A DNA stretch of 64,000 nt. Origin: Platerodrilus igneus (Eukaryota > Arthropoda > Insecta > Coleoptera > Lycidae). Location of the stretch: NCBI GenBank assembly GCA_036346225.1, contig JARFIW010000884.1, positions 1,240,001 to 1,304,000 on the forward strand, written 5' to 3'. Position 1 is the first letter of the stretch; every line of letters begins with the position of its first letter. This document shows positions 10,584 through 61,624 of the stretch, piece after piece. A program made the translations under genes and the position numbers. The notes below the pieces were generated by a model, which made no database searches, was not told the DNA's origin, and saw only the letters and a program-made list of their open reading frames with translations.

Positions 10584-10596
10584 GGTGTAGGCTGCC

Positions 10597-15910: not shown

Positions 15911-15949
<39 letters not shown>

Positions 15950-18640: not shown

Positions 18641-20400
18641 TTATTTTTTGTCATCAGTTTTCCATCTTGGGACTGGTTGGACGCGTACGCCATTTCTATT
18701 CTGAGCTAGCCTACACATTTCCCTGAAATTTCTACAGCCTATATACAGGCTTTCCCCTTTTTCTATTGTTTTCTCCATTATCACGCTCAGGGCGAAAATA
18801 GCTGTCTGTGTTGCCCTGTTTTGCCTAAACCCAAATCGATCTTCTCCTAGTAGTTCTTCAGCTCGTTTTTCCATTCGTCTTCGTACAATTTTAGTTAATA
18901 TTTTTGACACATGTGCTGTCAAACTTATTGTTTGAAAATTTTCACATCTATCCGCACCTTTCTTTTTAGTATAGTTACCATGATGTTACGTTTAAAATCT
19001 TTGGGTATCTCGCCTGTCTCATACATATAGCTTACAAGTTGGAAGAGACGTTTTGTTACTGCTTGTCCAGCGGCTTTTAGAGTTTCTGCTTGCAACTTAT
19101 CTGTACCCGGTGCCTTATCATTTTCAGACCCCTTAATGCTAATTGAAACTCGTCTAAGTATAGGATATCCCAAGTCATCATTTTTAATCTTTGCTGTTCT
19201 AATGCTGTTAGTTCTTCCCCTGCATATAAATTTTCTATATATTTTTGCCATCTACCCACTTTCTCTACATTTTTAATAATTTCGTTTCCTCCCGCTTCCG
19301 TATATTTTTGCTATATGGTTTTATATCCCTTAAATTCGTTCTAATTAATGTGTATGCTTCATCTGTTTTTCCTATTTCCATCTTAGTTTGTACCTCTTTG
19401 CATTTTTCATCAATCCATTGTTCTTTAGCTCTCTTGCATTTGCGAATAATTTTCTATTTTATGGCTTTATATTTCTGTTTTCCTGTTTCGTCTGATCTAT
19501 TTTTGTATTTTCGCTATTCTTCTATTAAATTCAGGATATTCTTTGGTATGCATGTTTTCTTATTTTCTTTTGTGTATACCCCAGAATATCTCTGGCCGCC
19601 ATGTCTAAGCTGGATTTAATGTTATTCCATTCTGTTTCTACTTCCTTAGAATACAAAATTTTCCCGATATCTTTCATCAATGCATTCGACTTTTTTTCTA
19701 ATCTTTCGTGGATATCTTTATCTTTTAATTTCTCAAAGTCAAAGTGCCCTTTTCCGTTTCTTTTTTTTTAATTTTTTAATTTTAGTGCGGCCTTCATAAT
19801 TACGATGTTGTAATCAGCTTCTGTATCTGCTTCTGGGTATCTTCTACAGCATTTTACTTGATTCTTAAACCGTTGTCTAACAAGAATGTAATCTATTTGA
19901 TATCTTCCTATATCTCCTGACATCTTCCACGTGTATCGTTTTCTTGCATGATGTTGATATAATGTATTTGTGATGATTAAGTTGTTCTTGTTGCAAAATT
20001 CTACCAGCCTATTTCCTTCTCGTTTTTCGTACTTAAACCAAATAAACCCACTACTGCTCCTTCCCTACCCTCATCTACCATTGCATTAAAATCCCCCGTA
20101 ATTATGAAATTTTCATGTTCCTTTACGTATCTTAGTATTTCTTCGATATCTTTGTAGATCGCTTCTACCTCTTCGTCACTGTAGCTAGGGGTGTGCATGT
20201 ATACTTTTATTATTACTGTATTTACCTGTTTAGTTTCTAATCTAGCTATGAGTGCTCTTTCGTTCTTTGGTAAGTAATTTTCTACACAGTGGCCTATCTT
20301 TTTTCGCATAACTATCCCCATTCCAGAATTTCCTTCCTCTGCTTCTGTATGAATTATCCTGAAGTCTCCACTCTAAAAATTCCCCATCTGCCCACCGAAC
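18641..20400 (-). pseudogene. Broken LINE endonuclease-RT (copy C)
   Basis: The endonuclease segment at 20,321-20,001 has VNTVIIKVYMHTPSYSDEE and ITGDFNAMVDEG. RT pieces at 19,251-18,925 and 18,922-18,641 carry KAPGTDKLQAETLKAAGQ, SKILTKIVRRRMEKRAEE and the internal deletion junction. Frames change repeatedly. Confidence 0.8.
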
Positions 20401-39117: not shown

Positions 39118-39410
39118 GGTTTTTAATGGCCTCTATTGTTATCCTATTCCGAGCTAACCTATACATTTCCCTGAAATTCCCACAGCCTACATCTTTTACT
39201 ATCTGCCTGCAATAGTCTGATCTAGGTCTACCTCTACCTCTCTTTTTTCCTATATCTGCTTATAATTTATCCCGCACTATTCCCCCAAATGCCTTAGAAC
39301 ATGTTCTATTGTTCTATGGTTTTCGAAATATATACCCTATTTCGCCGATATTCAGCGGTATGTGAAGGGGGTCAAGCAATCTGACGGCTACAAAGATCCC
39401 TCAACACTTA
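39118..39410 (-). mobile_element. LINE 3'-end fragment, second subfamily
   Basis: Reverse-strand remnant with CGAGCTAACCTATACATTTC, TGATCTAGGTCTACCTCTAC and a 3'-UTR-like end (GTATGTGAAGGGGGTCAAGC...CAACACTTAGACG). Confidence 0.75.
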
Positions 39411-40235
39411 GACGTGTGTGTTATTAAATAAAATACAGTTGGGTGTGACTTTTCACTTTGTGTACTGTTTATTATTGAAAACAAGGTATGTTGTAAGATA
39501 TGTTGTTAGTTGCTTACACCCTACCCTTTTCCAGATGTAACGAAAAGAATAGGTTGCCGACGGGGTATAAATAAATTACCCCTGTACAGCTACATTCGAC
39601 CGTTTTTGGCTGCGGAGACTGCAAAAGACTTAAAATCGTAGGGGGCAGATAAAGCTATGTTGAAAAGCTATAACAGTGTAAAGAAACTATTGCGATAAAA
39701 TAATTTAAAACACAGATTTGTGGAATAGAAATGCTTCAGTATTTTATTATGATGAATTGAAAAATTAATTTAATAAGACTTTAGATGTAAGTCAAATGTA
39801 GTATCAAATCACAAAGCTTTTTGTTGGATCATACTACTTTTAAATCAAATACTTGTTGCTTTAAGGCCATATGTTTTTTCATTCCTAAAGTTAAATCTAC
39901 ATTTCATTCTAAAATAAAGTTTAGCAGATAATGTTAGTTGAAAAATAGACTGCTATGAAGATATCAGTGGTATTAATTTTATAATAATCCTGAATCGACA
40001 AAATATTTGTAAAATATTATGCATACCAAACACTTTTAATAGCAACTAGATAACTAACCACTTCTTGAAACTTTTACAAACCGTCTGTTAACTTATTTCT
40101 TCAGAAAATTTAGAAATATACGCAATAACAAAAACTATTACTTTTGTAATGTAAAATTCAGCACAACTAATTTGTAAAACCGTTCAACTTATTTTTCACT
40201 ATTTATATAAATCGATAAAGTAAAACTACCTTTGT
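39411..40235. other. Non-coding interval
   Basis: AT-rich; 39,420-39,640 is less AT-rich and might be a solo long terminal repeat, but I cannot find a second copy or clear TG...CA ends with a target duplication. Confidence 0.4.
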
Positions 40236-41225
40236 AGTCATCATCATTAGGTCTTCAGTCTTACTGGTTAAACGCGTACCCTCATTGTTTCCTATTATGA
40301 ACTAACGTACACCTTTCCCTGAAATTTTTACAGTATGCATCTATCACTATCTGCGTGCGATAGTCTGATCTAGGTCTACCTCTACCTCTTTTTTCCTATC
40401 TCTGCTTGTAATATATACCGTACTATTTCCTAAAAATGCAATAAAACGTATCCCGCCCTTCTATTTCTCCTATTTTTTGCTTTTTTTGTTTTATTCCCCT
40501 ACTATTTCTATAATCTATTTGTTATTAACTTTGTCTGTCCATGCTATCTTCCTCATGCATCTGAAGACTCCTATCTCTTTAAGTTCAGTTATTTTTTTCG
40601 TCATTAGTTTCTCCATCTTGGGATTGGTTCGACGCGTACCTCCATTGATTTCTATTCTGAGCTAGCCTACACATTTCCCTGAAATTCCCACAGCCTGCAT
40701 CTTTCACTATCTGTGTGCAATAGTCTAACCTAGGTCTACTTCTACTTCTCTTTTTCCCACCTCTGCTTCTAATATATTCCGCACTATTCCCTCATGCCGT
40801 AGTATGAGGCCTAATATCTTATTTCTCCTATTTCTTTCTTCCTCTGCCATTTCTAGTACTTCTTTGTTCTTAACTTTGTCTGTCGATGATATATTCATCA
40901 TACGTCTCTAGCACCACAATTCAAAGGTTTATACCTTTTTCTTGCCCGCTTCTCTTACTGTTCAGGCTTCACAGCCCTACAGTGCTGTGTTTCACACATA
41001 TGTTTTAAGTAATCTTTTTCTTGTTTCTATGTTTGTTGTCTTTGAACACTGTAGTTTCTTTTTCTTTTTAAATGTAGTACGACCATGTGCTAATTTTTGT
41101 TTTATATCTTTTGCGTTTTTTCCAACTTGCGTTATTTGGCTTCCTAGGTAGCAGAAATTCTTAAGCTTTTGTAAGTTCTCGTTACCTATTTGTATTCTTG
41201 TTTTCGATGAATTTTCCACTCCTTT
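40236..41225 (-). mobile_element. Two LINE 3' ends, composite
   Basis: 40,236-40,560 is the second subfamily, starting at its TCATCATCAT tail. 40,575-41,225 is a 5'-truncated copy of the first family reaching back to the region after the RT active site (RIQIGNENLQKLKNFCYLGSQI). Coding remnants include TTNIETRKRLLKTYV at about 41,040-40,992. The element stops abruptly at 41,225 against the Gypsy relic. Confidence 0.8.
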
Positions 41226-41344
41226 TCACGGAAAAATTAAATGAAAATTCAGCAAGTTTTACAGAATAACTACAGGAAGACTTTACAGAAAAATAAGGTC
41301 GCAGCGAAATGAAAGTTTTATAGAGAAATTACACAATACCGCCC

Positions 41345-45237: not shown

Positions 45238-45352
45238 ATGGATATTAGAAAATTTTTCAAACGAAATGAACTAAAAGAATCATCTAGCATAGGCTGTAGT
45301 AGTAGCGGTGCTGGTGCTAATGCTATTTTTGAGTGTAATAGTATAGTACATA
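45238..45352 (+). pseudogene. hAT transposase, N-terminal part (before insertion)
   Basis: The ATG at 45,238 opens MDIRKFFKRNELKE, a start typical of ZMYM1-like hAT proteins, and runs in frame to the 6-bp target duplication. A consensus donor GTAAGT at 45,047 and an acceptor (T)10CAG ending at 45,203 suggest a 157-bp intron in the 5' leader; this is inferred. Downstream of 45,352 the frame meets a stop inside the insertion. The same frame continues across 59,375 in the right part. Confidence 0.82.
45347..45352. repeat. Polinton-type 6-bp target duplication, left
   Basis: TACATA directly before the AGTAGAGT terminus. The same six bases follow the other end at 59,375-59,380. Six-bp duplications are made by Polinton/Maverick integrases; some other integrases also give 5-6 bp. 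Confidence 0.85.
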
Positions 45353-45477
45353 AGTAGAGTATTTTGGATGTATTTGGCACAACACCACCACCACCACCAC
45401 CACCACCGTCGCTATCTAACCTAGGTTTTTACATGTAAAAACCCACTATAAAGTCTTATTTTTTAAGAATCTCCTCC

Positions 45478-45520
45478 TGCTCCGCCTTGCTCTCCGCCTT
45501 GCTCTCCGCCTTGCTCGGAC
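45478..45520. repeat. 12-bp tandem repeat (CTCCGCCTTGCT), outer part of left arm
   Basis: Three tandem units here against two in the mirrored position at 59,222-59,255. Just outside it is an (ACC)8 run (45,384-45,407), the same number in both arms. Confidence 0.85.
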
Positions 45521-45609
45521 ACCCCCCAACCATTTTGATTACGTCACACCCGCATTCTTTCCATCCGCGAGATAAATCTTTTTCCACACTTCCACCCACG
45601 AGATAAATG

Positions 45610-45885
45610 TACATTGTTTGGTATCAATTAATATTAGAATTTTCTCGGCTACTCGAATCTCTAAGAATTTTTCAGATATCATCACCCCAAGGAGCTACCC
45701 TCATTTTAAGATTTTTACCGCTAACATTCTGAACCAAAATAGTTTTCTTCGTCTAACCAATGCATATTTTGAGATAAACCTACCTTGTTTGGTATCAATT
45801 AATATTAGATTTTCTCAGCTACCCGAATTTCTAGGAATTTTTAGATTGCGCCATTTCCCAGAGAGCTACCCTGATTTTAAGATTT
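45610..45885. repeat. Duplicated block of about 170 bp, left arm
   Basis: Two diverged direct copies each contain TTTGGTATCAATTAATATTAGA, shown in part as TGGTATCAATTAATATT, followed by TTTCTC..GCTAC.CGAAT and GAGCTACCCT.ATTTTAAG. Mirrored at 58,845-59,135. No coding frame. Confidence 0.75.
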
Positions 45886-45939
45886 CTTACCTGTTGCGAT
45901 TTCCGACCGTCCTTAAACATACAACCAACCTAACCTAAC

Positions 45940-46065
45940 ATGGTCATATGGTCATATGACCATATGTGTCATATGGTCATGTGGTCATATGGTCATATGG
46001 TCATGTGGTCATATGGTCATATGGTCATGTGGTCATATGGTCATGTGGTCATATGGTCATTGGTT
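45940..46065. repeat. CATATGGTCA/CATGTGGTCA minisatellite, left arm
   Basis: Ten-bp units alternating CATATGGTCA and CATGTGGTCA for about 120 bp, mirrored at 58,662-58,798. CATATG and CATGTG are E-box-like hexamers, so the array could bind bHLH factors; that is inference. Confidence 0.9.
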
Positions 46066-46285
46066 ATGTGGGCAGGATCCAAATCTGTAAATAGATTTAA
46101 AATAGGACCACCCTTACCATTTTACACACCCTCTAAATTATAAATTTCCTGCGGCTCATACCTAAAGAAAATCTAAAACCATTCTTAAAGCTTTTTATTA
46201 CAGACAATTTTTACTAATACAGTTTAAATTTTGTAAACCACATTTCTAAATACATATTCACAATCTTTTATTCTTAATCTAGAAC

Positions 46286-47058
46286 TCATATCGGCTTATA
46301 CTTATTAATATTTATTTCTAAATAGAGTACCTTTTCCAAAGACCAACCGGACCCGCATGTTTCAAATTCCTCTGATTTTGTTCTTATGGTTTCGCTTAAG
46401 ACCTCGTACATATTTTCCAGATTACTAGAAGACGTTATAACCACATTTTTGTGTTAAAGGATTTCACATCGGTAGTCTCTTCCCCATTTTGGTGTAAACG
46501 CCGTAGAGTTCGCAGTAGACTTTTATTGCTGTATGTTGTATTCTTTTTCATTTATTAATCGAATAAATCGCTCTTTCTGCTTCCAAAGAAACTCGGCACT
46601 CCATCGTCGACACTGGCGTTCTTTATGCGATAGCTAGCCAAACGGTTGTTAAACGTTGTACTAACCATTTCTACACCATCGTCGTTAGTAGCGGTAACTG
46701 ATGCATTTTTATGTTTGTTGCTCCTTAAGTGTGCGGCATACGTAGTTTTTTCCATTTCGAAATCGCATACTTTACACATAATTCGTGGTTGTTTCGTACA
46801 AGGCCCTTTAACAGCTGGCGGAGCTGAACGTTTACGGCTTAATGACATACCGTGCTGTTTTTCCTTGTGTCGCTGTAAGCTGTCCATTCTCGTAAAAGCG
46901 ATACCGCAAGACCCACAGTTAAAGTACTTTGCTGCGGACGGATGTATAAGCAACCTGGGCGATGTTACACCACGACATTTGTTCAGGTGCCGTTTGAGAG
47001 CATTTTCCAGGTATAGGAAGCACCGCAAGAGTTGCACTAAAACGTTTGCAGATACCAT
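46286..47058 (-). pseudogene. Polinton-like DNA polymerase B, N-terminal zinc-finger fragment (left copy)
   Basis: Mirror of 57,672-58,451 with extra indels. A 1-2 base change near 47,038 breaks the first zinc finger and small differences near 46,955 alter the linker; the second finger (NCGSCGIAF...RHKEKQH) and third (CKVCDFEMEK...HLRSNKHK) are intact. The open part ends near 46,555, and the following frame (VVITSSSNLENMY, GSGW) lies at 46,470-46,286. Confidence 0.65.
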
Positions 47059-48829
47059 TTTAGTACAAAACAAAATCCGCACTATAGCACTTTGGTTAAA
47101 CTTGTAAGCGAACTAACTTATAACTAAAGAGTTTACTCTTGCGCACATGCTTTATGTACCCTATAGAATGCAAACCCAAGGTTTCCGAAGACACCCGAAC
47201 GAAGTTGAGGATTCAGCGGGAACTAAATGACGTCATAATCCTTGCTGCTCGTCCACCTGGTTCGCATCGTCGATGGTGCGAATGCAGTTAGTAGAAACAC
47301 CGGAAAACGTCTTCCATGTTATACGGATCGCGTGCATATTAAAATCCAAAGGGTGGTAGCACACGCACACAAAATGTGTGCAAGTCGTGCTGTAGAAGAT
47401 GCCGTGCTACTATAACCAAAACTTAATAAAAACACTTTAAACCATTACTAAGGAAATACCAACTTGTTGTCTACAGGATACTTACTAATAAAGCAATTTA
47501 ATTTTAAATAACTTCTACGTCATATTTTAGGAAATAGTGGGCTTGAATATTTTCTAAATGAATCACCGAGCGAAAGTATATGCTTAGCAGTATTAAAATT
47601 AACCATTAATTTCCCATTTTTACGACCATAGTTAATTATAGATTAAAATTTAATTTGTGCACGTTCGAGCTTCTCGTAAACTAACATATTTTATAGCAAC
47701 AATGCGCTGTATAATACATGCATACCCTTTCGCCGCGCTACTGCTATTCTTGTAATTGCTAGAAAAGTCACTCTCTTTTTACTGTTAGGACCTATGCAAA
47801 GCACCATTTTTTATACTTTCTATAGCACATCGCGCACTTTTTCGTCTGATGATTAAATTTTGCTTCTGTAGGCTTTTACACTTTCGCATAGCGGTCGACC
47901 GCACGTACTGATTTCTAGAACCGGTAAGTACTTGATATCGTCCAAATAGAGAATTAGATGCTCGATGTCTGTCAATTTCCAATTCCCTCGTAAAAGGTAG
48001 AAAAACTCAGTCAATCATCCATTATACTTCGACCCGCTCCTGTTCTGATAATTTACAAACATTTTTCAAACGACAATGGGCCGAGAATTTTTAAACCTCC
48101 GAGAGATCTTTAAGTCGTGATCAATTACACATCCGAGCTATGCGTAAACTAACATATTTTGCAGCAACTGTGCACTGTATAATACATGCATACCTCTTCT
48201 CTGCGCTACTGCTATTCTTGTAGTTGCTTGAAAAAGTCAGTCGCCCTTTTTACAGCTAGGGCTGCTAAAAAACACCATTCCATACTTTCTTTATAAGTGT
48301 AGCACATAGCGCACTTTTTTGTCGGATAATTAAATTTTTGTTTATGTAGGCCTTTACACTTTCGCTTATTTAAACATCTAATACGATTGATTAACCACTT
48401 TCGATTATTCTAACGGAGACCACCATACATCCCACCGCACCGTTCTTTTTGAATCCAACGATCCTATGGGCTTCCACGCACTAACACCTGACGTATCTTT
48501 CCTACTATTTGTTAAACAAAAACTACCGGTATCACCATTGTGGACGTAAACAGATGTTTGTGGATGTGTACGAGAGTATGTAACCATATACATTAACCAG
48601 TCTAAGCTATTTTATTTAGTCCACGAAAACTACTATTTTTCTAAACCACAATTAATAATCGCCTTTATAGGTTCCACATTTCGACCATTACCCAATGACT
48701 GGTGCTACATACATGGAAACTTTAATTTCTTATTGCAGAGAATTCTTATTCTCCCACGCACTGCCGCGTAGTTGCATGTCCATTCCTTTTGGAGGTATAT
48801 GCTTGTTATAGGTTGTAAGACCCTCGGTT

Positions 48830-48988
48830 TTACTTAACTACAATTCGTGAGACCCCTTTAATCTTTTTAATCGTATCTTTCTCGCCTACAATACAGTAGG
48901 ACTTAGCCCTATTACCAACAAATTCTAATACTGGACCCCCATTAAATACGTCTTTAATTTTCCCTACAACTTTTTTTGTTGACAAGTG
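48830..48988 (-). pseudogene. DNA polymerase B C-terminal fragment 1 (left copy)
   Basis: Mirror of 55,741-55,899, same reading frame, with motif LEFVGNRAKSY and KKIKGVSRIVVK. See the right copy. Confidence 0.6.
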
Positions 48989-49398
48989 TTATATTGTATT
49001 TATTATACGCGGGGTAGTCACTCTTTTAAGATAAATATATTTTGCTAGGTATCAACTAATATTAAATTTTTCTAGGGACCCCAAATCTGTAAATAGATTT
49101 TAAATAGGACCACCCCATACAAAGTTATGCGTTTTAAAGACCCAAATCACAATTTTTGCTCATCTTTATTTAACACCATTTTAAAACCTTTTCGCTACCC
49201 AAGACATATGCCTTAGCCAACCATCTCCCGAGAAATCTAAAACCGCAGTGTCCCGCGAATACCACGTGGAGATAACACGTATACTCTGTCAACCAGGAAG
49301 CCGGAAGGATTTGGAAGGTGGTAGAAGAACTTAAAAATTATGGAATCTTAAAACTAATATATACAATAGATTTACAAAATCCATACAAATATAAACAA

Positions 49399-49593
49399 CT
49401 ATCTTATATCTTTACACCCCCATGCGTAGATTGTTGTACTATTAGGAATGATGTACTTTTGTCATCTTCCTCGATAAACTAATTTTATTAATAAACTGCG
49501 TATGCAAATCGTATTCTTTACTCCGGGTACATACGCAGGCAAGTACTCGATACCATCCAAATAAAGAATTGGATGCTTGGTGACTGTTAACAT
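49399..49593 (-). pseudogene. DNA polymerase B C-terminal fragment 2 (left copy)
   Basis: Mirror of 55,131-55,328. One A fewer in the run near 49,526 shifts the frame after the PGVK residues, so the DDKKY motif is out of frame in this copy. Confidence 0.6.
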
Positions 49594-49614
49594 CCGCTTC
49601 CCTCGTGTATGCTC

Positions 49615-49705
49615 AGACACATCCCAGCCCATGAGCACCCCTGCGCATGCACACCCCTGCCCATGCGCACCCCTGCGCGTACGCACCCCTGCCCATGCGC
49701 ATCCC
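49615..49705. repeat. 16-bp G/C-rich tandem repeat (left copy)
   Basis: About five units of ACCCCTGCSCATGCGC on the plus strand, mirrored at 55,016-55,105. Strongly GC-rich in an AT-rich element, with four or more runs of CCCC on this strand. Confidence 0.9.
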
Positions 49706-49811
49706 TCTCTGTGCGAGTGCTATTTCGGGGTAACGTCACAGCCTTTTATAAATAAAGAACAATGTTATATACTATTATAAAATGTTTATTCTGACATTAT
49801 ACATAACAAAT

Positions 49812-51222
49812 TTAAAAATATTTAATGCCAAGCATGGAGTCATTTATACTTAATTTTAATACAAAGTTATACACAGAAGACAGTCCTTTCTTTATGTTTG
49901 TTTTGCAGTGGTTTTTAATTTTATCTAATTTTATTCGCAGCTTAAAATTTAAATCGATACCCAAGTCCTCTATCTCCTTTTCTAACCAATAGTTTGATGC
50001 ATAAAGACCGTCTAGGATTTCGAATTGTAAAATGTACCGAAGTTTGCCTCTATATTTAAAGTCTCTAATTCCGCCGACAACCAGATCCATTCCTTCGTGT
50101 AATTCTTGCAGCTTGTGACAATCTTTTAATCGCAGCTTTCCCACTATATCCTGCATACGTATCTTGTTAGCTTGATCGACTTCTTCTTGTCGGTATTGGG
50201 AAATCCTTTTTCTCCCACACACCGTTGTGTAGTTGCATATCCACCACTTTTGGGAATATATGGTTGTTATGGGTTGTAAGACCCTCGGTTTTAAATGATC
50301 CGAACGGTTCTTTACTAGGTAAATATACAATGTTTAGCGGAACCCCTTTGCATGTGGTGTACGCCAAGGTTACGAAACCTGCATTCCTTAGTTCGTCTTT
50401 GTTATCTGCCATTTTGATAAATACGTTTTTAGAATAACCTTTTAAAAAGTATACGGATTTAGTACCATCCTTTTCTGCAAGAACGTCTACATAACTAAAA
50501 GAGTCTTTCTTACTAACCGCAAATGCATACAGCTTGTACAACCCGGATGTATCTAAGTCAGTCCATCGGCACATAAAATAATCTTTTAATTCTTCCTCAT
50601 TTTCTCTAATAAGATGTTCTTTGTCTAACACATCTTTGTATTGTTCGCGTATTATCGCAGTGTTTTCCATGTAGTCCAATTTTCGCCTTTTTGCATCCAT
50701 TTCCTCTAATTCCAGTTGTCTTTTCCTTCCACTTACAGCGTATGACATGCATAATGGGGCAATTTCCTTTAGCGTAAACGGATAGAGTTTACTACCAATA
50801 TTTGCGTGTTGTCGTACAACCTCTGGGCGAATGTTAGGTGTATTTATCAATCCCAATTCCGAAATGACTATTTCTTTTGGAATTGTAGAATATGGTGTTG
50901 CAGATTGTGTAAAATATGTACTACCTGCTTTAATGTAGCACTTGTGTAAGATTTTTATTTTATCTTGGCAGTCTTCCTCCTCTACTATCTCCAAATAATT
51001 TACGGGTAAATAGTTAAAACTAAAAGCCGAAAGCACATACTTTATCAATGTTTCCCTTTCTTTTGGGTTTTCGGACAACTTAATTTGCAAGCCCGTCAAT
51101 TTCTTTGTATTACCATTCCCCCAATACACGTACTGTAGTAGGTTATTATACACTAAACAGCAGCTATTTTGTAGCTTGTCCGATAGCTTACTCCACATTT
51201 TGGCAAGTGGTACCGCGTACAT
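49812..51222 (-). CDS. Unrecognised Polinton-associated protein, about 470 aa, one frameshift (left copy)
   Basis: Same protein as the right copy. The first ATG in the conserved frame is at 51,222 (MYAVPLAKMW); upstream frame without ATG may be reached by splicing. This copy reads without interruption through the position where the right copy is frameshifted (TTCKGVPLNIVYLP) but is itself shifted by 2 nt near 50,200 (KKDFPIP instead of KKDFLQYRQ). The second frame runs to the stop at 49,812. I do not recognise the family. Confidence 0.7.
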
Positions 51223-51478
51223 TGACGCCTTTAGGAAGTATAACACTATCTTCCAATAACGTTTAACACCCTTTTAAAAAATAATACACATCTTTGTTAT
51301 AATTCTTTTCATAATTACTTAGATGCCCATTTCAGTTACGTGGACATTTGAAAAATTAAACAATACCAATGTATGCTTTATATTTTAAAACATAAACAAG
51401 CTAATATATACAAAAATAATTTCTAAATTCACATCATTCATTTCTTATGATAACAGTTGTGGTGGTTAAATTTTTATT

Positions 51479-51739
51479 TTAAAACTTACAATTTAGTATA
51501 TATTCCATTTGAATATCTGCCAACAGTTTTATAAACCCCATCTCCTCGATTATTTCCATAAAATCATCCAGATCCTCGGGCATTGATAACACTGCAGTAC
51601 AGTGCTGTATTGCTTCCTCGTATGACTGACACATAAGACATTTTTCTCCTTCTATCGAAAAGCGTTGCCCACATTCTGCTTTTTTTACTCGTAGAGCATT
51701 GCGAAATCTTCGAATAACCTCTCCAAAGTCTTTATACAT
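51479..51739 (-). CDS. Small 86-aa CxxC protein (left copy)
   Basis: Identical in amino-acid sequence to the right copy at 52,980-53,240; described there. TATA box at 51,802-51,809 (minus strand), about 63 nt before the ATG. Confidence 0.7.
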   Translation of the reverse strand: MYKDFGEVIRRFRNALRVKKAECGQRFSIEGEKCLMCQSYEEAIQHCTAVLSMPEDLDDFMEIIEEMGFIKLLADIQMEYILNCKF

Positions 51740-51801
51740 ATTTATTATATTGTCTCTTTAAACCGTACAATCAACAAATAATAGCTTCTACGCGAACAGT
51801 C

Positions 51802-51809
51802 CTTTTATA
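51802..51809 (-). promoter_or_regulatory. TATA box of left arm
   Basis: TATAAAAG on the minus strand, the exact mirror of 52,910-52,917, directing transcription outward through the left arm. Confidence 0.6.
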
Positions 51810-51864
51810 TGAGCTACTCCTATTCGGATATGTACCGATTGTACCCGATTTGTGTGCACGCACG

Positions 51865-51982
51865 AAACCAAGTGTGGACCTAGGTTAGATAAAAGGAAAA
51901 ATTAGTAGGTTAGGTCAGCGCCGCGGCGCTGACCTAACCTACTAATTTTTCCTTTTATCTAACCTAGGTCCACACTTGGTTT
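51865..51982. repeat. Perfect 118-bp palindrome
   Basis: Both halves match base for base around CCGCGG (51,921-51,926). It starts AAACCAAGTGTGG and ends CCACACTTGGTTT. It contains ACCTAGGTTAGAT, which recurs near the outer ends of the element (45,413; 59,306). It lies at the junction of the left arm and the unique centre. A single strand would fold into one 59-bp hairpin. Confidence 0.95.
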
Positions 51983-52188
51983 TTAATGGAAAAACTCATT
52001 AAAAAGCAATTAGTGCTAATGGGTTTTTAATGAGAAAACTCATTAAAAAGCAATTAGTGCTAATGTGTTTATAATGAGAAAACTCATTAAAAAGCAATTA
52101 GTGCTAATGTGTTTATAATGAGAAAACTCATTAAAAAGCAATTAGTGCTAATGGGTTTTTAATGAGAAAACTCATTAAAAAGCAATTA
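51980..52188. repeat. 44-bp iterons, about 4.7 units, each with two inverted repeats
   Basis: Each unit holds TTAATGAG-AAAA-CTCATTAA (8-bp stem, 4-base loop) and ATTAGTGCTAAT (5-bp stem). Units differ only by TTTTTAAT or TTTATAAT and GGG or GTG. Single-copy within the 14-kb element, unlike everything in the arms. Confidence 0.95.
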
Positions 52189-52759
52189 CCCTCCACCCTA
52201 CTTTGTCCTTCTCCCTCCTTTCGCATCCGTACGACATACATCCAAACTATATCCAACATACACCTGAGATATGTCCATTTTGAATATTTTGGGGCTTGAC
52301 AAAATTTTTAGTAATTCGGACTTAGGAAAATTTTAACATAAGTTTGTAAATTTTATACCAAGGCCTCTAACTCGAAACTGATATAGCTACCAAAATTTAC
52401 AAAGACAGTTATTACGACTACTCTGCGGTCAGACAGCCCCAACCCCACTTACTGGGAGTCGGAGCTACACCAATTCGCATCGATTCATCAACTTAATTGC
52501 ACTGTTTCTCGGTTCAACCACATATGGTACCACTGTAATGATAAAACTTAGTCATAACATCCATTTTAAGTTTCAAAGACAATTTTTTAAAATTGGTTGT
52601 TGCGTATAACTTTTGTGATATCGCAATAATATTAAACTATTTCTTTATGTGCATAATCGGATCTAGGTCTAGTTGTGGAGGTGTATTAATGGCAAAGTTC
52701 CTTGAATTTACCTCCATCAGAATAGGGTGAAATTACCCCATAGGGTGAAAGTGTCTCCC

Positions 52760-52818
52760 TCCGACCTAGGTCGGATTTAATCCGACCTAGATCGGATTTT
52801 AATCCGACCTAGATCGGA
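52760..52818. repeat. Three 16-bp near-palindromes TCCGACCTAGRTCGGA
   Basis: At 52,760-52,775 (perfect, with AGG), 52,781-52,796 and 52,803-52,818 (one mismatch each), spaced 21-22 bp. This looks like clustered binding sites for a dimeric DNA-binding protein, next to the right arm. Confidence 0.85.
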
Positions 52819-52909
52819 TAGCAAAACTGTTCCTAATCAAGAGAATGGTTGTTTCGTGCGTGCACACAAATCGGGTACAATCGGTACATATCCGAATAGG
52901 AGTAGCTCA

Positions 52910-52917
52910 TATAAAAG
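52910..52917 (+). promoter_or_regulatory. TATA box of right arm
   Basis: TATAAAAG, 63 nt before the ATG of the 86-aa ORF. With its mirror at 51,802 it makes a pair of promoters facing outward from the centre, 1.1 kb apart. Confidence 0.6.
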
Positions 52918-52979
52918 GACTGTTCGCGTAGAAGCTATTATTTGTTGATTGTACGGTTTAAAGAGACAATATAATAAAT

Positions 52980-53240
52980 ATGTATAAAGACTTTGGAGAG
53001 GTTATTCGAAGATTTCGCAATGCTCTACGAGTAAAAAAAGCAGAATGTGGGCAACGCTTTTCGATAGAAGGAGAAAAATGTCTTATGTGTCAGTCATACG
53101 AGGAAGCAATACAGCACTGTACTGCAGTGTTATCAATGCCCGAGGATCTGGATGATTTTATGGAAATAATCGAGGAGATGGGGTTTATAAAACTGTTGGC
53201 AGATATTCAAATGGAATATATACTAAATTGTAAGTTTTAA
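52980..53240 (+). CDS. Small 86-aa CxxC protein (right copy)
   Basis: No recognised family. The N-terminus is basic (VIRRFRNALRVKK), followed by a Cys cluster (ECGQRF...EKCLMCQSYEEAIQHC) suggestive of metal binding, then an acidic segment (MPEDLDDFMEIIEE). First gene after the TATA box. The frame ends just after a consensus splice donor GTAAGT at 53,230, and an AG at 53,468-53,469 would join it in frame to the next large ORF, so it may be a first exon rather than a separate gene. Diverged copies lie further out in the same arm. Protein identical in both arms. Confidence 0.7.
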   Translation: MYKDFGEVIRRFRNALRVKKAECGQRFSIEGEKCLMCQSYEEAIQHCTAVLSMPEDLDDFMEIIEEMGFIKLLADIQMEYILNCKF

Positions 53241-53498
53241 AATAAAAATTTAACCACCACAACTGTTATCATAAGAAATGAATGATGTGAATTTAGAAAT
53301 TATTTTTGTATATATTAGCTTGTTTATGTTTTAAAATATAAAGCATACATTGGTATTGTTTAATTTTTCAAATGTCCACGTAACTGAAATGGGCATCTAA
53401 GTAATTATGAAAAGAATTATAACAAAGATGTGTATTATTTTTTAAAAGGGTGTTAAACGTTATTGGAAGATAGTAAGTTATACTTCCTAAAGGCGTCA

Positions 53499-54912
53499 AT
53501 GTACGCGGTACCACTTGCCAAAATGTGGAGTAAGCTATCGGACAAGCTACAAAATAGCTGCTGTTTAGTGTATAATAACCTACTACAGTACGTGTATTGG
53601 GGGAATGGTAATACAAAGAAATTGACGGGCTTGCAAATTAAGTTGTCCGAAAACCCAAAAGAAAGGGAAACATTGATAAAGTATGTGCTTTCGGCTTTTA
53701 GTTTTAACTATTTACCCGTAAATTATTTGGAGATAGTAGAGGAGGAAGACTGCCAAGATAAAATAAAAATCTTACACAAGTGCTACATTAAAGCAGGTAG
53801 TACATATTTTACACAATCTGCAACACCATATTCTACAATTCCAAAAGAAATAGTCATTTCGGAATTGGGATTGATAAATACACCTAACATTCGCCCAGAG
53901 GTTGTACGACAACACGCAAATATTGGTAGTAAACTCTATCCGTTTACGCTAAAGGAAATTGCCCCATTATGCATGTCATACGCTGTAAGTGGAAGGAAAA
54001 GACAACTGGAATTAGAGGAAATGGATGCAAAAAGGCGAAAATTGGACTACATGGAAAACACTGCGATAATACGCGAACAATACAAAGATGTGTTAGACAA
54101 AGAACATCTTATTAGAGAAAATGAGGAAGAATTAAAAGATTATTTTATGTGCCGATGGACTGACTTAGATACATCCGGGTTGTACAAGCTGTATGCATTT
54201 GCGGTTAGTAAGAAAGACTCTTTTAGTTATGTAGACGTTCTTGCAGAAAAGGATGGTACTAAATCCGTATACTTTTTAAAAGGTTATTCTAAAAACGTAT
54301 TTATCAAAATGGCAGATAACAAAGACGAACTAAGGAATGCAGGTTTCGTAACCTTGGCGTACACCACATGCAAAGGGTGTTCCGCTAAACATTGTATATT
54401 TACCTAGTAAAGAACCTTTCGGATCATTTAAAACCGAGGGTCTTACAACCCATAACAACCATATATTCCCAAAAGTGGTGGATATGCAACTACACAACGG
54501 TGTGTGGGAGAAAAAGGATTTCCTCCAATACCGACAAGAAGAAGTCGATCAAGCTAACAAGATACGTATGCAGGATATAGTGGGAAAGCTGCGATTAAAA
54601 GATTGTCACAAGCTGCAAGAATTACACGAAGGAATGGATCTGGTTGTCGGCGGAATTAGAGACTTTAAATATAGAGGCAAACTTCGGTACATTTTACAAT
54701 TCGAAATCCTAGACGGTCTTTATGCATCAAACTATTGGTTAGAAAAGGAGATAGAGGACTTGGGTATCGATTTAAATTTTAAGCTGCGAATAAAATTAGA
54801 TAAAATTAAAAACCACTGCAAAACAAACATAAAGAAAGGACTGTCTTCTGTGTATAACTTTGTATTAAAATTAAGTATAAATGACTCCATGCTTGGCATT
54901 AAATATTTTTAA
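53499..54912 (+). CDS. Unrecognised Polinton-associated protein, about 470 aa, one frameshift (right copy)
   Basis: The conserved frame is open from 53,463; its first ATG is at 53,499. The N-terminal half is alpha/beta-like with LQNSCCLVYNNLLQYVYW and KYVLSAFSFNYLPVNYLE. A charged coiled-coil-like segment (RKRQLELEEMDAKRRKLDYM) lies near 53,990-54,055. The C-terminal half is mixed (LYKLYAFAVSKKDSF, LYASNYWLEKEIEDLG). One extra T near 54,379 shifts the frame relative to the left arm; the second frame runs to TAA at 54,910-54,912. AATAAA follows at 54,934. Residues are otherwise the same in both arms. The layout recalls DNA-virus proteins with a coiled-coil linker, but no domain is assignable. 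Confidence 0.72.
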
Positions 54913-55015
54913 ATTTGTTATGTATAATGTCAGAATAAACATTTTATAATAGTATATAACATTGTTCTTTATTTATAAAAGGCTGTGACGTTACCCCGAA
55001 ATAGCACTCGCACAG

Positions 55016-55105
55016 AGAGGGATGCGCATGGGCAGGGGTGCGTACGCGCAGGGGTGCGCATGGGCAGGGGTGTGCATGCGCAGGGGTGCTCATGGGCTGG
55101 GATGT
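55016..55105. repeat. 16-bp G-rich tandem repeat
   Basis: Five units of GCGCATGGGCAGGGGT with variants; GGGG recurs every 16 bp, a possible G-quadruplex former on this strand. It lies between the large ORF and the PolB fragment. Confidence 0.9.
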
Positions 55106-55130
55106 GTCTGAGCATACACGAGGGAAGCGG

Positions 55131-55328
55131 ATGTTAACAGTCACCAAGCATCCAATTCTTTATTTGGATGGTATCGAGTACTTGCCTGCGTATGTACCCG
55201 GAGTAAAAGAATACGATTTGCATACGCAGTTTATTAATAAAATTAGTTTATCGAGGGAAGATGACAAAAAGTACATTATTCCTAATAGTACAACAATCTA
55301 CGCATGGGGGTGTAAAGATATAAGATAG
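55131..55328 (+). pseudogene. DNA polymerase B C-terminal fragment 2 (right copy)
   Basis: The last part reads LHTQFINKISLSREDDKK, then YIIPNSTTIYAWG and a stop. This matches the ending I know for Polinton protein-primed polymerases (nK.aLs..DDKR.i...-TLAwGH). The first 20 or so residues (MLTVTKHPILYLDGIEYLP) do not belong to PolB and resemble a second segment near 56,760-56,815 (LILYLDDIKYLP). Only the terminal strand region is present, far from any palm domain. Confidence 0.65.
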
Positions 55329-55740
55329 TTGTTTATATTTGTATGGATTTTGTAAATCTATTGTATATATTAGTTTTAAGATTCCATAATTTTTAAGTTC
55401 TTCTACCACCTTCCAAATCCTTCCGGCTTCCTGGTTGACAGAGTATACGTGTTATCTCCACGTGGTATTCGCGGGACACTGCGGTTTTAGATTTCTCGGG
55501 AGATGGTTGGCTAAGGCATATGTCTTGGGTAGCGAAAAAGGTTTTAAAAATGGTGTTAAATAAAGATGAGCAAAAATTGTGATTTGGGTCTTTAAAACGC
55601 ATAACTTTGTATGGGGTGGTCCTATTTAAAATCTATTTACAGATTTGGGGTCCCTAGAAAAATTTAATATTAGTTGATACCTAGCAAAATATATTTATCT
55701 TAAAAGAGTGACTACCCCGCGTATAATAAATACAATATAA

Positions 55741-55899
55741 CACTTGTCAACAAAAAAAGTTGTAGGGAAAATTAAAGACGTATTTAATGGGGGTCCAGTA
55801 TTAGAATTTGTTGGTAATAGGGCTAAGTCCTACTGTATTGTAGGCGAGAAAGATACGATTAAAAAGATTAAAGGGGTCTCACGAATTGTAGTTAAGTAA
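55741..55899 (+). pseudogene. DNA polymerase B C-terminal fragment 1 (right copy)
   Basis: A 52-codon frame with KVVGKIKDVF, VLEFVGNRAKSY and KKIKGVSRIVVK. In Polinton and related PolB proteins the segment GK.KDE...EFVGLRAK.Y...KAKGV...VV immediately precedes the C-terminal tail. Here it lies 400 bp downstream of that tail, so the two pieces are in reversed order. It runs directly into a diverged copy of part of the large ORF. Confidence 0.68.
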
Positions 55900-55998
55900 A
55901 ACCGAGGGTCTTACAACCTATAACAAGCATATACCTCCAAAAGGAATGGACATGCAACTACGCGGCAGTGCGTGGGAGAATAAGAATTCTCTGCAATA
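55896..55998 (+). pseudogene. Diverged partial copy of the large ORF
   Basis: ACCGAGGGTCTTACAACC followed by TATAACAAGCATATACC parallels 54,432-54,530 of the large ORF (TEGLTTHNNHI, MQLHNGVWE; here TEGLTTYNKHI, MQLRGSAWE) and ends in a stop. Mirrored at 48,731-48,833. The duplication is within the arm and older than the palindrome. Confidence 0.75.
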
Positions 55999-56339
55999 AG
56001 AAATTAAAGTTTCCATGTATGTAGCACCAGTCATTGGGTAATGGTCGAAATGTGGAACCTATAAAGGCGATTATTAATTGTGGTTTAGAAAAATAGTAGT
56101 TTTCGTGGACTAAATAAAATAGCTTAGACTGGTTAATGTATATGGTTACATACTCTCGTACACATCCACAAACATCTGTTTACGTCCACAATGGTGATAC
56201 CGGTAGTTTTTGTTTAACAAATAGTAGGAAAGATACGTCAGGTGTTAGTGCGTGAAGCCCATAGGATCGTTGGATTCAAAAAGAACGGTGCGGTGGGATG
56301 TATGGTGGTCTCCGTTAGAATAATCGAAAGTGGTTAATC

Positions 56340-57070
56340 AATCGTATTAGATGTTTAAATAAGCGAAAGTGTAAAGGCCTACATAAACAAAATTTAATTA
56401 TCCGACAAAAAGTGCGCTATGTGCTACACTTATAAAGAAAGTATGGAATGGTGTTTTTAGCAGCCCTAGCTGTAAAAAGGGCGACTGACTTTTTCAAGCA
56501 ACTACAAGAATAGCAGTAGCGCAGAGAAGAGGTATGCATGTATTATACAGTGCACAGTTGCTGCAAAATATGTTAGTTTACGCATAGCTCGGATGTGTAA
56601 TTGATCACGACTTAAAGATCTCTCGGAGGTTTAAAAATTCTCGGCCCATTGTCGTTTGAAAAATGTTTGTAAATTATCAGAACAGGAGCGGGTCGAAGTA
56701 TAATGGATGATTGACTGAGTTTTTCTACCTTTTACGAGGGAATTGGAAATTGACAGACATCGAGCATCTAATTCTCTATTTGGACGATATCAAGTACTTA
56801 CCGGTTCTAGAAATCAGTACGTGCGGTCGACCGCTATGCGAAAGTGTAAAAGCCTACAGAAGCAAAATTTAATCATCAGACGAAAAGTGCGCGATGTGCT
56901 ATAGAAAGTATAAAAAATGGTGCTTTGCATAGGTCCTAACAGTAAAAAAGAGAGTGACTTTTTCTAGCAATTACAAGAATAGCAGTAGCGCGGCGAAAGG
57001 GTATGCATGTATTATACAGCGCATTGTTGCTATAAAATATGTTAGTTTACGAGAAGCTCGAACGTGCACA
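56340..57070 (+). pseudogene. Two degenerate copies related to the 86-aa ORF
   Basis: Direct repeats at 56,350-56,600 and 56,840-57,065 share GCGAAAGTGTAAA, AAAAGTGCGC.ATGTGCTA, TACAAGAATAGCAGTAGCGC and GGTATGCATGTATTATACAG. One frame reads KCAMCYTYKESMEWC (56,412), close to KCLMCQSYEEAIQHC of the 86-aa protein. Both are cut by stops. Mirrored in the left arm at about 47,655-48,390. Confidence 0.6.
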
Positions 57071-57671
57071 AATTAAATTTTAATCTATAATTAACTATGG
57101 TCGTAAAAATGGGAAATTAATGGTTAATTTTAATACTGCTAAGCATATACTTTCGCTCGGTGATTCATTTAGAAAATATTCAAGCCCACTATTTCCTAAA
57201 ATATGACGTAGAAGTTATTTAAAATTAAATTGCTTTATTAGTAAGTATCCTGTAGACAACAAGTTGGTATTTCCTTAGTAATGGTTTAAAGTGTTTTTAT
57301 TAAGTTTTTGGTTATAGTAGCACGGCATCTTCTACAGCACGACTTGCACACATTTTGTGTGCGTGTGCTACCACCCTTTTGGATTTTTAATATGCACGCG
57401 ATCCGTATAACATGGAAGACGTTTTCCGGTGTTTCTACTAACTGCATTCGCACCATCGACGATGCGAACCAGGTGGACGAGCAGCAAGGATTATGACGTC
57501 ATTTAGTTCCCCGCTGAATCCTCAACTTCGTTCGGGTGTCTTCGGAAACCTTGGGTTTGCATTCTATAGGGTACATAAAGCATGTGCGCAAGAGTAAACT
57601 CTTTAGTTATAAGTTAGTTCGCTTACAAGTTTAACCAAAGTGCTATAGTGCGGATTTTGTTTTGTACTAAA

Positions 57672-58451
57672 ATGGTATCTGCAAACGTTTTTAAGTGCAA
57701 CTCTTGCGGTGCTTCCTATACCTGGAAAAATGCTCTCAAACGGCACCTGAACAAATGTCGTGGTGTAACATCGCCCAGGGTTAAGCTTATACATCCGTCC
57801 GCAGCAAAGTACTTTAACTGTGGGTCTTGCGGTATCGCTTTTACGAGAATGGACAGCTTACAGCGACACAAGGAAAAACAGCACGGTATGTCATTAAGCC
57901 GTAAACGTTCAGCTCCGCCAGCTGTTAAAGGGCCTTGTACGAAACAACCACGAATTATGTGTAAAGTATGCGATTTCGAAATGGAAAAAACTACGTATGC
58001 CGCACACTTAAGGAGCAACAAACATAAAAATGCATCAGTTACCGCTACTAACGACGATGGTGTAGAAATGGTTAGTACAACGTTTAACAACCGTATGGCT
58101 AGCTATCGCATAAAGAACGCCAGTGTCGACGATGGAGTGCCCGAGTTTCTTTGGAAGCAGAAAGAGCGATTTATTCGATTAATAAATGAAAAAGAATACA
58201 ACATACAGCAATAAAAGTCTACTGCGAACTCTACGGCGTTTACACCAAAATGGGGAAGAGACTACCGATGTGAAATCCTTTAACACAAAAATGTGGTTAT
58301 AACGTCTTCTAGTAATCTGGAAAATATGTACGAGGTCTTAAGCGAAACCATAAGAACAAAATCAGAGGAATTTGAAACATGCGGGTCCGGTTGGTCTTTG
58401 GAAAAGGTACTCTATTTAGAAATAAATATTAATAAGTATAAGCCGATATGA
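57672..58451 (+). pseudogene. Polinton-like DNA polymerase B, N-terminal zinc-finger fragment (right copy)
   Basis: The ATG at 57,672 begins MVSANVFKCNSCG. Three zinc fingers follow: CNSCGASYTWKNALKRHLNKC, given as C..C...H...C; CGSCGIAFTRMDSLQRHKEKQH-type C2H2; and CKVCDFEME...HLRSNKH. Then TTFNNRMASYRIKNA and FLWKQKERFIRLI. A stop at 58,212 is followed by KVYCELYGVYTK and, after a frameshift, ENMYEVLSETIRTKSEEF, GSGWSLEKVL and INKYKP ending at 58,451. Insect Polinton PolB proteins begin with such fingers, then AF..RI..YR and GSGW.L...L.V.INKY. It stops exactly there; exonuclease and palm regions are absent. It lies outside, and downstream of, the C-terminal pieces. Confidence 0.75.
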
Positions 58452-58661
58452 GTTCTAGATTAAGAATAAAAGATTGTGAATATGTATTTAGAAATGTGGT
58501 TTACAAAATTTAAACTGTATTAGTAAAAATTGTCTGTAATAAAAGCTTTAAGAATGGTTTTAGATTTTCTTTAGGTATGAGCCGCAGGAAATTTATAATT
58601 TAGAGGTGTGTGTAAAATGGTAAGGGTGGTCCTATTTTAAATCTATTTACAGATTTGGATC

Positions 58662-58798
58662 CTGCCCACATAACCACATGACCATATGACCACATGACCA
58701 TATGACCACATGACCATATGACCATATGACCACATGACCATATGACCATATGACCACATGACCATATGACACATATGGTCATATGACCATATGACCAT
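58662..58798. repeat. CATATGACCA/CATGACCA minisatellite, right arm
   Basis: Mirror of 45,940-46,065; ten-bp units with alternating CATATG and CACATG. Confidence 0.9.
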
Positions 58799-59374
58799 GT
58801 TAGGTTAGGTTGGTTGTATGTTTAAGGACGGTCGGAAATCGCAACAGGTAAGAAATCTTAAAATCAGGGTAGCTCTCTGGGAAATGGCGCAATCTAAAAA
58901 TTCCTAGAAATTCGGGTAGCTGAGAAAATCTAATATTAATTGATACCAAACAAGGTAGGTTTATCTCAAAATATGCATTGGTTAGACGAAGAAAACTATT
59001 TTGGTTCAGAATGTTAGCGGTAAAAAATCTTAAAATGAGGGTAGCTCCTTGGGGTGATGATATCTGAAAAATTCTTAGAGATTCGAGTAGCCGAGAAAAT
59101 TCTAATATTAATTGATACCAAACAATGTACATTTATCTCGTGGGTGGAAGTGTGGAAAAAGATTTATCTCGCGGATGGAAAGAATGCGGGTGTGACGTAA
59201 TCAAAATGGTTGGGGGGTGTCCGAGCAAGGCGGAGAGCAAGGCGGAGCAGGAGGAGATTCTTAAAAAATAAGACTTTATAGTGGGTTTTTACATGTAAAA
59301 ACCTAGGTTAGATAGCGACGGTGGTGGTGGTGGTGGTGGTGGTGTTGTGCCAAATACATCCAAAATACTCTACT

Positions 59375-59380
59375 TACATA
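59375..59380. repeat. Polinton-type 6-bp target duplication, right
   Basis: TACATA directly after the terminus TACTCTACT, identical to 45,347-45,352; the hAT reading frame resumes across it. Confidence 0.85.
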
Positions 59381-61624
59381 ATAGTGTCAATGATCTAAAT
59401 AAAGCTGGTAGTTCGTCACCTAATACTTTAAAATCTCTCACATGTGAATATGACACTAATCTTTCAACTGATAAGAATGAGTACATACTCGATTTGGGCA
59501 ATTTTGTTAACTCAAATGAAACACTTTCCGACGATGTTCGCTTTTCATTATTAACAAATCCTTACAAACCAGATCCTAAATATAATTTCAAGAACGATTC
59601 CGAAGAAAGAAGACGTGCTTTTAGATATGACTGGCTTCAACAATACGATTGGCTTGCGTATTCTCCAAAACTCAAAGGCGCACTTTGCAAATATTGCGTA
59701 TTTTTTCGGCCAACTGTTAAAAGAGGGGTTCTTGGTTCTTTCATTGTGAAGCCTTTCACAAAATATCATGACTTTGTCGTTTCTGCAAAAGCACATGCTA
59801 CAACCGAATGGCATCGTGATTCAACTATAAAAGCTTCTAGTTTTACAAAAATTATTGAAGGAAAACGTCTATCAATTACCTCTGAAATAGATGAATCTGA
59901 GCGGGATTTGATTGAATCGAATCGCAAAAAACTTATACCAATAATATCCACCGTCATTTTTGTGGTATGCATGATTTGCCATTACGAGGTGATAAAAAAA
60001 GGTAATTTTGAGGATCTTTTACAATTCAGAATAGAAAGTGGGGATCACATTCTAAACGAGCACTTAAAGTGTTGCAAGAAGAACTCAAAATACACCTCTC
60101 ACAGAACTCAAAATCAAATAATTTCAATTTGTGGAACATTAATTAGGGAAAAAATTGTGAAAGATGTGAATTTGAGTGAAGCATTTTCAATTCTGGCTGA
60201 CGAAAGTGCAGATATTGCTGGGGTAGAACAGTTATGAATTGGAGTAAGATTTGTTAGTAATGACAATTCGGTCAGAGAAGAATTTTTAGGCTTTGTAGTC
60301 CTTACATCGCTGAACGCAGAAGGTATAACTGCTGCAATTTTAAACGCTTGTAATGAATATGGTCTTTGTATGGATAAATTAGTTGGATTAGGGTTTGATG
60401 GTTGCTCGACGATGGCAGGTCATGAGCAGGGAGTCCAAAAACTTATTAAAAATAAATATCCAAAAGCGATATATTGTCACTGCGCGTCCCATAGATTAAA
60501 TTTAGTGATAAATGATTTGAACAAGATTCCGGATATTCAAAATTCAGTAGGTACCATTAAAGAAGTAATTACTTTCTTTCGAGATAGTCCATTAAGATGT
60601 AGATATGTTTCTAATATTCCACTATTATGTGAAACACGCTGGTCCGCCAAATATAAATCAATGAGGATGTTTGCGGAACATTTTGCAGATACTATGAACG
60701 CTCTGGAAAATTTAGCTCATAACCGTGCAATAAATGCTCAGACAAGAAATAGGGCCAGTCAACTTTTAAATTGCGTTTCTTCGTCGAAATTTATTCTTTG
60801 TCTGCATATTATGGCCAAATATTCTAGCAAATTGGAACCTGTTTGTAATGCACTGCAGTCTAAAAGTATAAACTTATTTTCCGTTAAAGAGCACATAGAT
60901 GAACTACTCAAACTTTTTAAGACACACCGTAGTGATCCTGAACAATACTTTAAAGAGGTTTATAAAAAAAGTGTTGAACATGCCCATGGTTTTGGATTGG
61001 AAATTACATTACCACGTATTGCACCAAGACAAACTCATAGGTCTAATTATCATATGAGTAGTGTTGAAGATTACTTTCGAGTAAGCCTTTTTATTCCTTA
61101 CTTGGATTCTGTTATACAGTCTATTTCCACAAGGTTTTCTGAAGATGCTACGACTTCTTTTTACTCTCTGGATTACATCCAAATAACTTAAAAGACAACA
61201 ATATAAAAAGCATTGTTAAATAAAAAGAAGAAATAGCCAGAAGTTACAACATTGATAACTTTTCAGAACAGTTGCAAACGTGGGTTGAACTTTGGCAAAA
61301 TAGAGAGATTCAACAAGATACAGACTTTGTACATTTGCTTGATAATGAAGTTTCTTTTTTTCCGGCGATCAAAACTGCGCTGAATATTTTTTTGGCATTA
61401 CCTCCAACTACTGCAACAATAGAAAGGTCATTTAGTACGCTAAAGCGGGTAAAATCGTGGCTTAGATCAAGCATGTCAGGGGATAGATTATCAGGTTTAT
61501 GCATGCTTAGTGTACATAAGGACATGGTAGGTAGGGAGAAACAAGCATTCATAAATGAAGTCCTAAATAGATTTGGTCAAGACCGAAGAAGATTGATATT
61601 TATATTAAAAAATGATGATGATTA
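59381..61624 (+). pseudogene. hAT transposase, main part (ZMYM1-like)
   Basis: A TTF-type zinc-finger region lies at about 59,605-59,710 (FRYDWLQQYDWLAYSP, CKYCVFF), followed by the DUF4371-type core. Catalytic Asp in ILADESAD at about 60,199; second Asp in GLGFDGCSTMAG near 60,397; CHCASHRLNLV near 60,476; ETRWSAKY near 60,630; final Glu in ATIERSFSTLKR near 61,422 within the dimerisation domain; stop at 61,623. Three lesions: TGA at 60,236 where a sense codon is expected before IGVRF, a frameshift near 61,170, and TAA near 61,222. The protein would cut and paste the hAT element; this copy cannot. Confidence 0.9.

Follow-up and report, generated by a model that had tools for sequence, protein, structure and literature searches.

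A palindromic Polinton-like insertion in Platerodrilus igneus and its relatives: a family of inverted dimers that may arise by fold-back at a hairpin end

The window analysed here is a stretch of 64,000 nucleotides from the lycid beetle Platerodrilus igneus (GenBank assembly GCA_036346225.1, contig JARFIW010000884.1, positions 1,240,001 to 1,304,000 of the forward strand). It contains an insertion of 14,022 bp (45353–59374) with two mutually inverted arms of ~6.52 kb, which a first-pass annotation had described as a near-perfect palindrome around a 982-bp centre, inserted as a single element with AG...CT ends and a 6-bp TACATA duplication. Our analysis bears out both parts of this description. 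Self-BLAST aligned positions 45351–51868 with the reverse complement of 52851–59376 at 99.28% identity over 6544 columns, with three mismatches and 29 gap openings, and comparison of the arms alone, within slightly narrower limits, gave four mismatches and 28 gap openings. The gaps are mainly indels of 1–2 bases, frequently in homopolymers, plus one 12-bp short-repeat unit; much of this divergence resembles read errors, and the true arms may be closer still. The element begins with AGTAGAGTATTTTGG and finishes with CCAAAATACTCTACT, i.e. it has AGTAG...CTACT ends, and a motif resembling a GGTCATATGGTCATGT-type repeat lies near the outer end (window ~45940–46070). Joining the flanks across a single TACATA yields an open frame that runs from MDIRKFFKR into the right-hand frame, and thus the entire palindrome is one insertion. 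We call the interrupted frame hAT-like on the presumption that DUF4371 is linked to hAT elements.

The centre is asymmetric, a feature that had escaped the first-pass annotation. Its axis lies within a perfect palindrome of 118 bp, formed by the tip of a conserved end (termed E, which many arm junctions carry) and an inverted copy of that tip. To the right of the axis 927 bp continue unbroken into the right arm, whereas to the left 59 bp are kept before the left arm. Since the remainder of the centre (51983–52850) runs into the right arm, the left arm is short of 868 bp beside the axis, and the structure in the window is a monomer plus an inverted monomer, one of them without this stretch. The arms carry a C2H2 zinc-finger gene and the C-terminal part of a Rep-like protein of ~785 aa (Table 1). 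The N-terminal domain of the latter is missing from the window copy, so mobilisation must come from other copies; no packaging ATPase was found in the window copy itself.

Table 1. Features of the insertion in the window, with the complete insertions found at other loci of the genome
Feature	Position in window	Strand	Remarks
Interrupted hAT-like frame, 5' part	45238–45352	+	Insertion target; begins MDIRKFFKR
Target duplication, left copy	45347–45352		TACATA
Left arm, outer to inner	45353–51868		Starts with AGTAGAGTATTTTGG
C2H2 zinc-finger gene, left-arm copy	46555–47082	-	Frame differs from the right arm through indels
Rep-like protein, C-terminal part, left arm	49812–51246	-	Overlapping frames 49812–50330 and 50167–51246
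Perfect 118-bp palindrome	51865–51982		Tip of end E plus 59-bp inverted copy; axis 51923/51924
End E and subsequent centre	51924–52850	+	Continuous with right arm
44-bp units of the centre	Starts at 51992, 52036, 52080, 52124, 52168		
Right arm, inner to outer	52851–59374		Ends with CTCTACT
92-aa frame	52962–53240	+	Same sequence after E in copy L061; no Pfam family over the cut-off
Rep-like protein, C-terminal part, right arm	53463–54912	+	Two frames; without the N-terminal Rep_trans-like domain
C2H2 zinc-finger gene, right-arm copy	57648–58214	+	Pfam zf-C2H2_4, E 5.3e-07
Target duplication, right copy	59375–59380		TACATA
Interrupted hAT-like frame, remainder	59381–60237	+	DUF4371 trace under the Pfam cut-off
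Complete insertion, locus C12			17.8 kb; duplication ATCCAA
Complete insertion, locus C1608			12.5 kb; arms 4.9 kb; duplication CAAATT
Complete insertion, locus C991			11.3 kb; arms 3.7 kb; duplication GATATG
Complete insertion, locus C1076			14.6 kb, palindromic almost end to end; duplication TTGATA

The initial 2 kb of the element match many places in the assembly (2.71 Gb in 1723 contigs); the best 40 of 12,375 candidates were scored, so that the copy counts given here are lower bounds. Seven further loci were read at length (C12, C1608, C991, C1076, C1009, C1566 and C244), the fourth of which had been selected for its inverted gene pair and is not an unbiased draw. Four of the seven proved to be complete insertions, each with a 6-bp duplication of its own and with inverted arms of great length (Table 1), and hence the check on duplication length in other copies that had been proposed in the first-pass annotation turned out in favour of its assignment. 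With the window element included, the arms of the complete insertions measure 3.7–7.3 kb, all five have AGTAG...CTACT ends and all five are bounded by 6-bp duplications, no two of which are the same. Within one element the arms differ by 0.41–6.26 mismatches per kb, while different elements differ from one another by 25.5–152 mismatches per kb, the only exception being the pair formed by the window element and C12, with 1.3 (gaps uncounted throughout). The arms are thus closer within than between elements, which implies that they were made alike in each lineage separately, apart from possible sharing between the window element and C12.

At the other three loci a dimer was not demonstrated: in C1009 pieces of the arm flank the tip on both sides and the right end was not found, in C1566 there are no long inverted arms within 20 kb, and C244 has two left ends that share one flank sequence, with no right end found. 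The left ends in C244 (6528848 and 6543130; L011–L014) lie 14.3 kb apart in one orientation with an identical flank, as could be expected of a local duplication, a nested insertion or a duplicated haplotype in the assembly.

The axis of the insertion at C1076 and the 118-bp palindrome of the window have the 32-mer GGTTAGGYCAGCGCCGCGGCGCTGRCCTAACC in common. This GC-rich tip sequence occurs 465 times in the genome as an exact match, and its reversed control does not occur at all. We read 20 of the 465 copies, 17 of which could be sorted; in L031, L032 and L037 the two sides were indistinguishable by the sorting rule, and these copies were excluded from the orientation count. In all 17 clear copies one side is constant and corresponds to E, and the other consists of a short inverted copy of the tip followed by variable sequence. 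The inverted tip copy measures 23–57 bp across all 20 (in a tolerant count), and 18 of 21 variable sides (17 clear and four from the unsorted copies) match the element family, while none match control flanks. A second set of 20 copies was picked by means of a 41-mer from within E, which has 314 matches in forward and 313 in reverse orientation. There the length of the inverted tips varies: none is clear in L059, L063 and L065, others measure 3–11 bp, and those of L061 and L067 extend well over 100 bp, with indels. L063 has lost its GC-rich tip, and L067 has an altered one. The variable sides of this set match the family in 13 of 20 cases and controls in none. Judged by its best match to an arm, the sequence beyond the tip is inverted in 15 of 17 copies in the first set and in 13 of the 20 in the second, direct in none and unmatched in the remainder. 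On its other side, E is followed by the Rep-like gene in 14 copies of the second set, by an ATPase gene in five (partial in two) and by a different frame in one; where the Rep-like or ATPase gene is intact, the tip lies ~350–510 bp upstream of it. We also considered a miniature inverted-repeat transposable element at the centre of the palindrome and rejected it, as the matchable sequence past the tip is the family's own arm, inverted, and the other side of E leads to genes.

Two further observations concern the surroundings of E. A variable number of GGTCATATGGTCATGT-type repeats separates E from the genes, e.g. in L057 and L060, and in C991 the tip and the shortened arm are set apart by a long microsatellite (L019 7615–8203), whose frames read as LCIMYYV repeats.

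The element at C1608 carries a packaging ATPase of the A32/FtsK type (Pfam Pox_A32, E 1.6e-06), which provided a sample that had not been chosen by the presence of a palindrome. Among the ATPase matches (best 150 of 13,909 candidates scored, 93–100% identity) inspection by eye revealed six same-contig pairs less than 20 kb apart, all of them inverted and five of them divergent and within 4 kb. A further 16 matches from high in the list were then picked by hand, without knowledge of their surroundings, and 800 bp upstream of each were read. This region matched the ATPase arm best in inverted orientation in 13 cases and in direct orientation in none, and was unmatched in three. E is retained to within 11 bp of the tip in seven of the 16 and elsewhere stops 27–500 bp inside. 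A joint anchored solely at the tip is therefore rejected, as nine of the 16 copies stop inside E or the gene; the tip is a preferred joint and not the sole one. Four pair axes were read. One contains a perfect palindrome of 76 bp that falls within E and lacks the GC core, and in the other three no perfect palindrome exceeds 12 bp. As to the ATPase itself, the copy at C1566 (L027/L028, joined 9860–10750) has additional sequence at its start (MSHSSNQWCSKQSITKASEDIL...YNIPRTTLCRYVKR), which looks like a helix-turn-helix of the psq type joined to the A32 domain, and frames of 297 aa recur among the ATPase matches.

The structure predicted for the N-terminal domain of the Rep-like protein (predicted local distance difference test, pLDDT, 87.0) has rolling-circle initiators as its top fold matches in the PDB, followed by TBP; the domain scored E 1.7e-3 (prob 0.92) against 4cij and E 4.1e-3 (prob 0.93) against 4cwc. 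A TBP-like fold is the one assigned to Rep_trans in published descriptions of that family. Identity with an HUH Rep is unsupported, the best folds being Rep_trans and TBP. Alignments of seven and of 22 rows show D73, D192, K251-x-Y253-x-K255 and R300-x-E302 (P0011 numbering) to be invariant; these residues match the published Rep_trans motifs, as placed by motif and not by superposed coordinates, and Y253 falls inside a predicted strand (248–254). There are deviations: the E of YxKxxE is replaced by C, motif II is kept only in part, and the Pfam Rep_trans profile (PF02486) matches none of the 22 members. The invariant residues are kept in the ciliate homologue P0160 from Tetrahymena utriculariae, one of the seven aligned sequences, and the named matches of the protein include Hemiptera, Schistocerca, a Baumannia bin and a ciliate; Planococcus, too, has a locus with the Rep-like gene. 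A PDB search by sequence returned no match, no relative was confirmed in IMG/VR with the Rep-like or ATPase alignments or in GTDB contigs with the Rep-like alignment, and a library of viral protein structures gave four matches at E <=1e-3 with TM-scores <=0.32 (three unnamed and one baculovirus LEF-3), which were not used; the absence of a family from such lists does not exclude it. Published accounts confine Rep_trans to bacteria apart from a distant relative in archaea, and the literature searched yielded no eukaryotic Rep_trans.

The mirror layout in many sampled relatives suggests self-copying by fold-back at a hairpin end, and we consider it fairly likely that the window copy is a member of a large Polinton-derived family of replicons that form head-to-head dimers in this manner. 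A monomer would extend from the outer AGTAG end through the genes to the inner end E, closed by the GC-rich palindromic tip. The putative Rep_trans-like initiator, supplied by sister copies, would nick at or near the hairpin tip, whereupon the 3' end could fold back through GCGCCGCGGCGC and copy its own strand; the product would be a giant palindrome whose axis is the tip. Both ends of this dimer would be the same AGTAG end, and it would insert through them with a duplication of 6 bp, by means of a Polinton-type integrase supplied in trans. One arm would often lose sequence near the axis, as in the window copy (868 bp), and such a loss would also stabilise the palindrome. Inverted duplication by hairpin or strand-switch replication, as put forward in the first-pass annotation, is the likeliest class of mechanism. 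Two findings weigh against a dimer centred on the tip, namely the many joints that lie away from it and the ATPase pair at C1009, which is convergent, with its members 13 kb apart, an arrangement that such a dimer does not predict.

The former finding speaks for a different origin, which we regard as rather unlikely: protein-primed replication of a linear Polinton genome by PolB, with strand switching or panhandle priming producing the inverted dimers and the Rep-like gene uninvolved. Defective replicons of the adenovirus and yeast killer-plasmid types form inverted dimers in this way, and the Polinton-type ends, the duplications and the A32-type ATPase would fit such an ancestry. However, Pfam detected no protein-primed PolB in the 13 element frames scanned (a scope that is not genome-wide), and protein priming has no need for a palindromic tip in hundreds of copies or for the Rep-like gene that adjoins it in 14 of the 20 sampled.

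It is improbable that a single non-autonomous Polinton derivative had its terminal repeats overgrown once and that all copies descend from it, although the near-identical arms shared by the window element and C12 (1.3 mismatches per kb) are what this would lead one to expect. This model of the first-pass annotation, a lone derivative with overgrown repeats, proved too narrow: there are four more dimers and inverted arms at 13 of 16 ATPase genes, elements of different gene content, with ATPase or Rep, have inverted arms as well, and arms are mostly more similar within elements than between them. Formation of the palindromes in the chromosome after insertion, from hairpin-capped breaks at the tip followed by inverted duplication and trimming through break repair at the centre, is very improbable, because the duplications bracket the whole dimer and the outer ends match in all five complete insertions, whereas a later duplication would copy flanking sequence too. 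The deletions on the axis side and the widely varying length of the inverted tips do resemble palindrome trimming, and trimming after insertion is also compatible with the favoured formation of dimers by fold-back at the tip. Finally, an assembly or read artefact is rejected: fold-back reads do produce palindromes, and the differences between arms, mostly small and often homopolymeric indels, are like those of little-polished long reads, but the flanks are not inverted and give an open frame when joined, the two sides of the centre are unequal, and the joints differ among the sampled loci.

The family shares AG...CT ends, 6-bp target duplications and, in sister elements, an A32-type ATPase with Polintons/Mavericks, from which it differs in that the inserted form is an inverted dimer and that a Rep_trans-like protein stands in place of recognised PolB, integrase and capsid genes in the 13 frames scanned. 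No RVE integrase was matched by Pfam in these frames (no genome-wide search was made), and p259, p280 and p287, which were considered with respect to a capsid, gave no informative Pfam match. On the strength of its ends, its duplication and the ATPase of its family we file the window element as Polinton-like, which is short of a proven Polinton. With Rep_trans initiators (RepDE of the pT181 family and RepSTK1) the Rep-like protein has in common the D, D, YxK and RxE motifs and the proximity of its gene to a GC-rich palindrome, and the top match of its model is their TBP-like catalytic fold; the differences are its length of ~785 aa, its weakly matched C-terminal OB-like folds, the lack of a Pfam match to the protein and its occurrence in animal genomes and a ciliate.

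Palindromic defective genomes are known as by-products of protein-primed replicons, such as the symmetric recombinants of adenovirus and derivatives of pGKL1. They are likewise inverted dimers with two identical ends, whereas members of the sampled family described here are usually inverted in layout. Parvovirus replication at hairpin ends yields head-to-head or tail-to-tail forms (PMC3087758), and the mode proposed here would by analogy also work through hairpin ends. In contrast to parvoviruses, the integrated form is a dimer and not a monomer, and no parvovirus gene was seen in the scanned frames; the Rep of parvoviruses belongs to the HUH enzymes. The remark in the first-pass annotation that it knew of no described Polinton with this architecture agrees with our survey, as no account of palindromic Polintons appeared in the literature searched (PMC11071308 included, with most subscription journals and Repbase outside its range), which is not proof of novelty.

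In the remainder of the window, positions 1–24200 and 39100–41250 are dense in direct and inverted repeats unrelated to the insertion, mostly 65–91% identical (e.g. 788–2021 versus 18738–19961, inverted). Another inverted repeat, at 15889–15993 (108 columns, 88.9%), matches repeats at the C1566 locus.

More tentatively, these may be animal elements or endogenous viruses of Polinton ancestry that acquired an endonuclease of the Rep_trans type and replicate from the tip by a rolling-hairpin or fold-back mode, with their genes split among segments of two or more kinds, Rep and ATPase, which share both ends and are each inserted as an obligate palindromic dimer. Long palindromes are usually considered unstable, and here an element family seems normally to be inserted as palindromes of 11–18 kb. 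How integrated relatives of Polintons replicate can be tested from genome sequence by means of the conserved tip, the close similarity of the arms and the target duplications. If a Rep_trans-like initiator does occur in insects and a ciliate, it would widen a family described so far from bacteria and a distant archaeal branch, and would give the Polintons and their relatives a replicase of a new kind.

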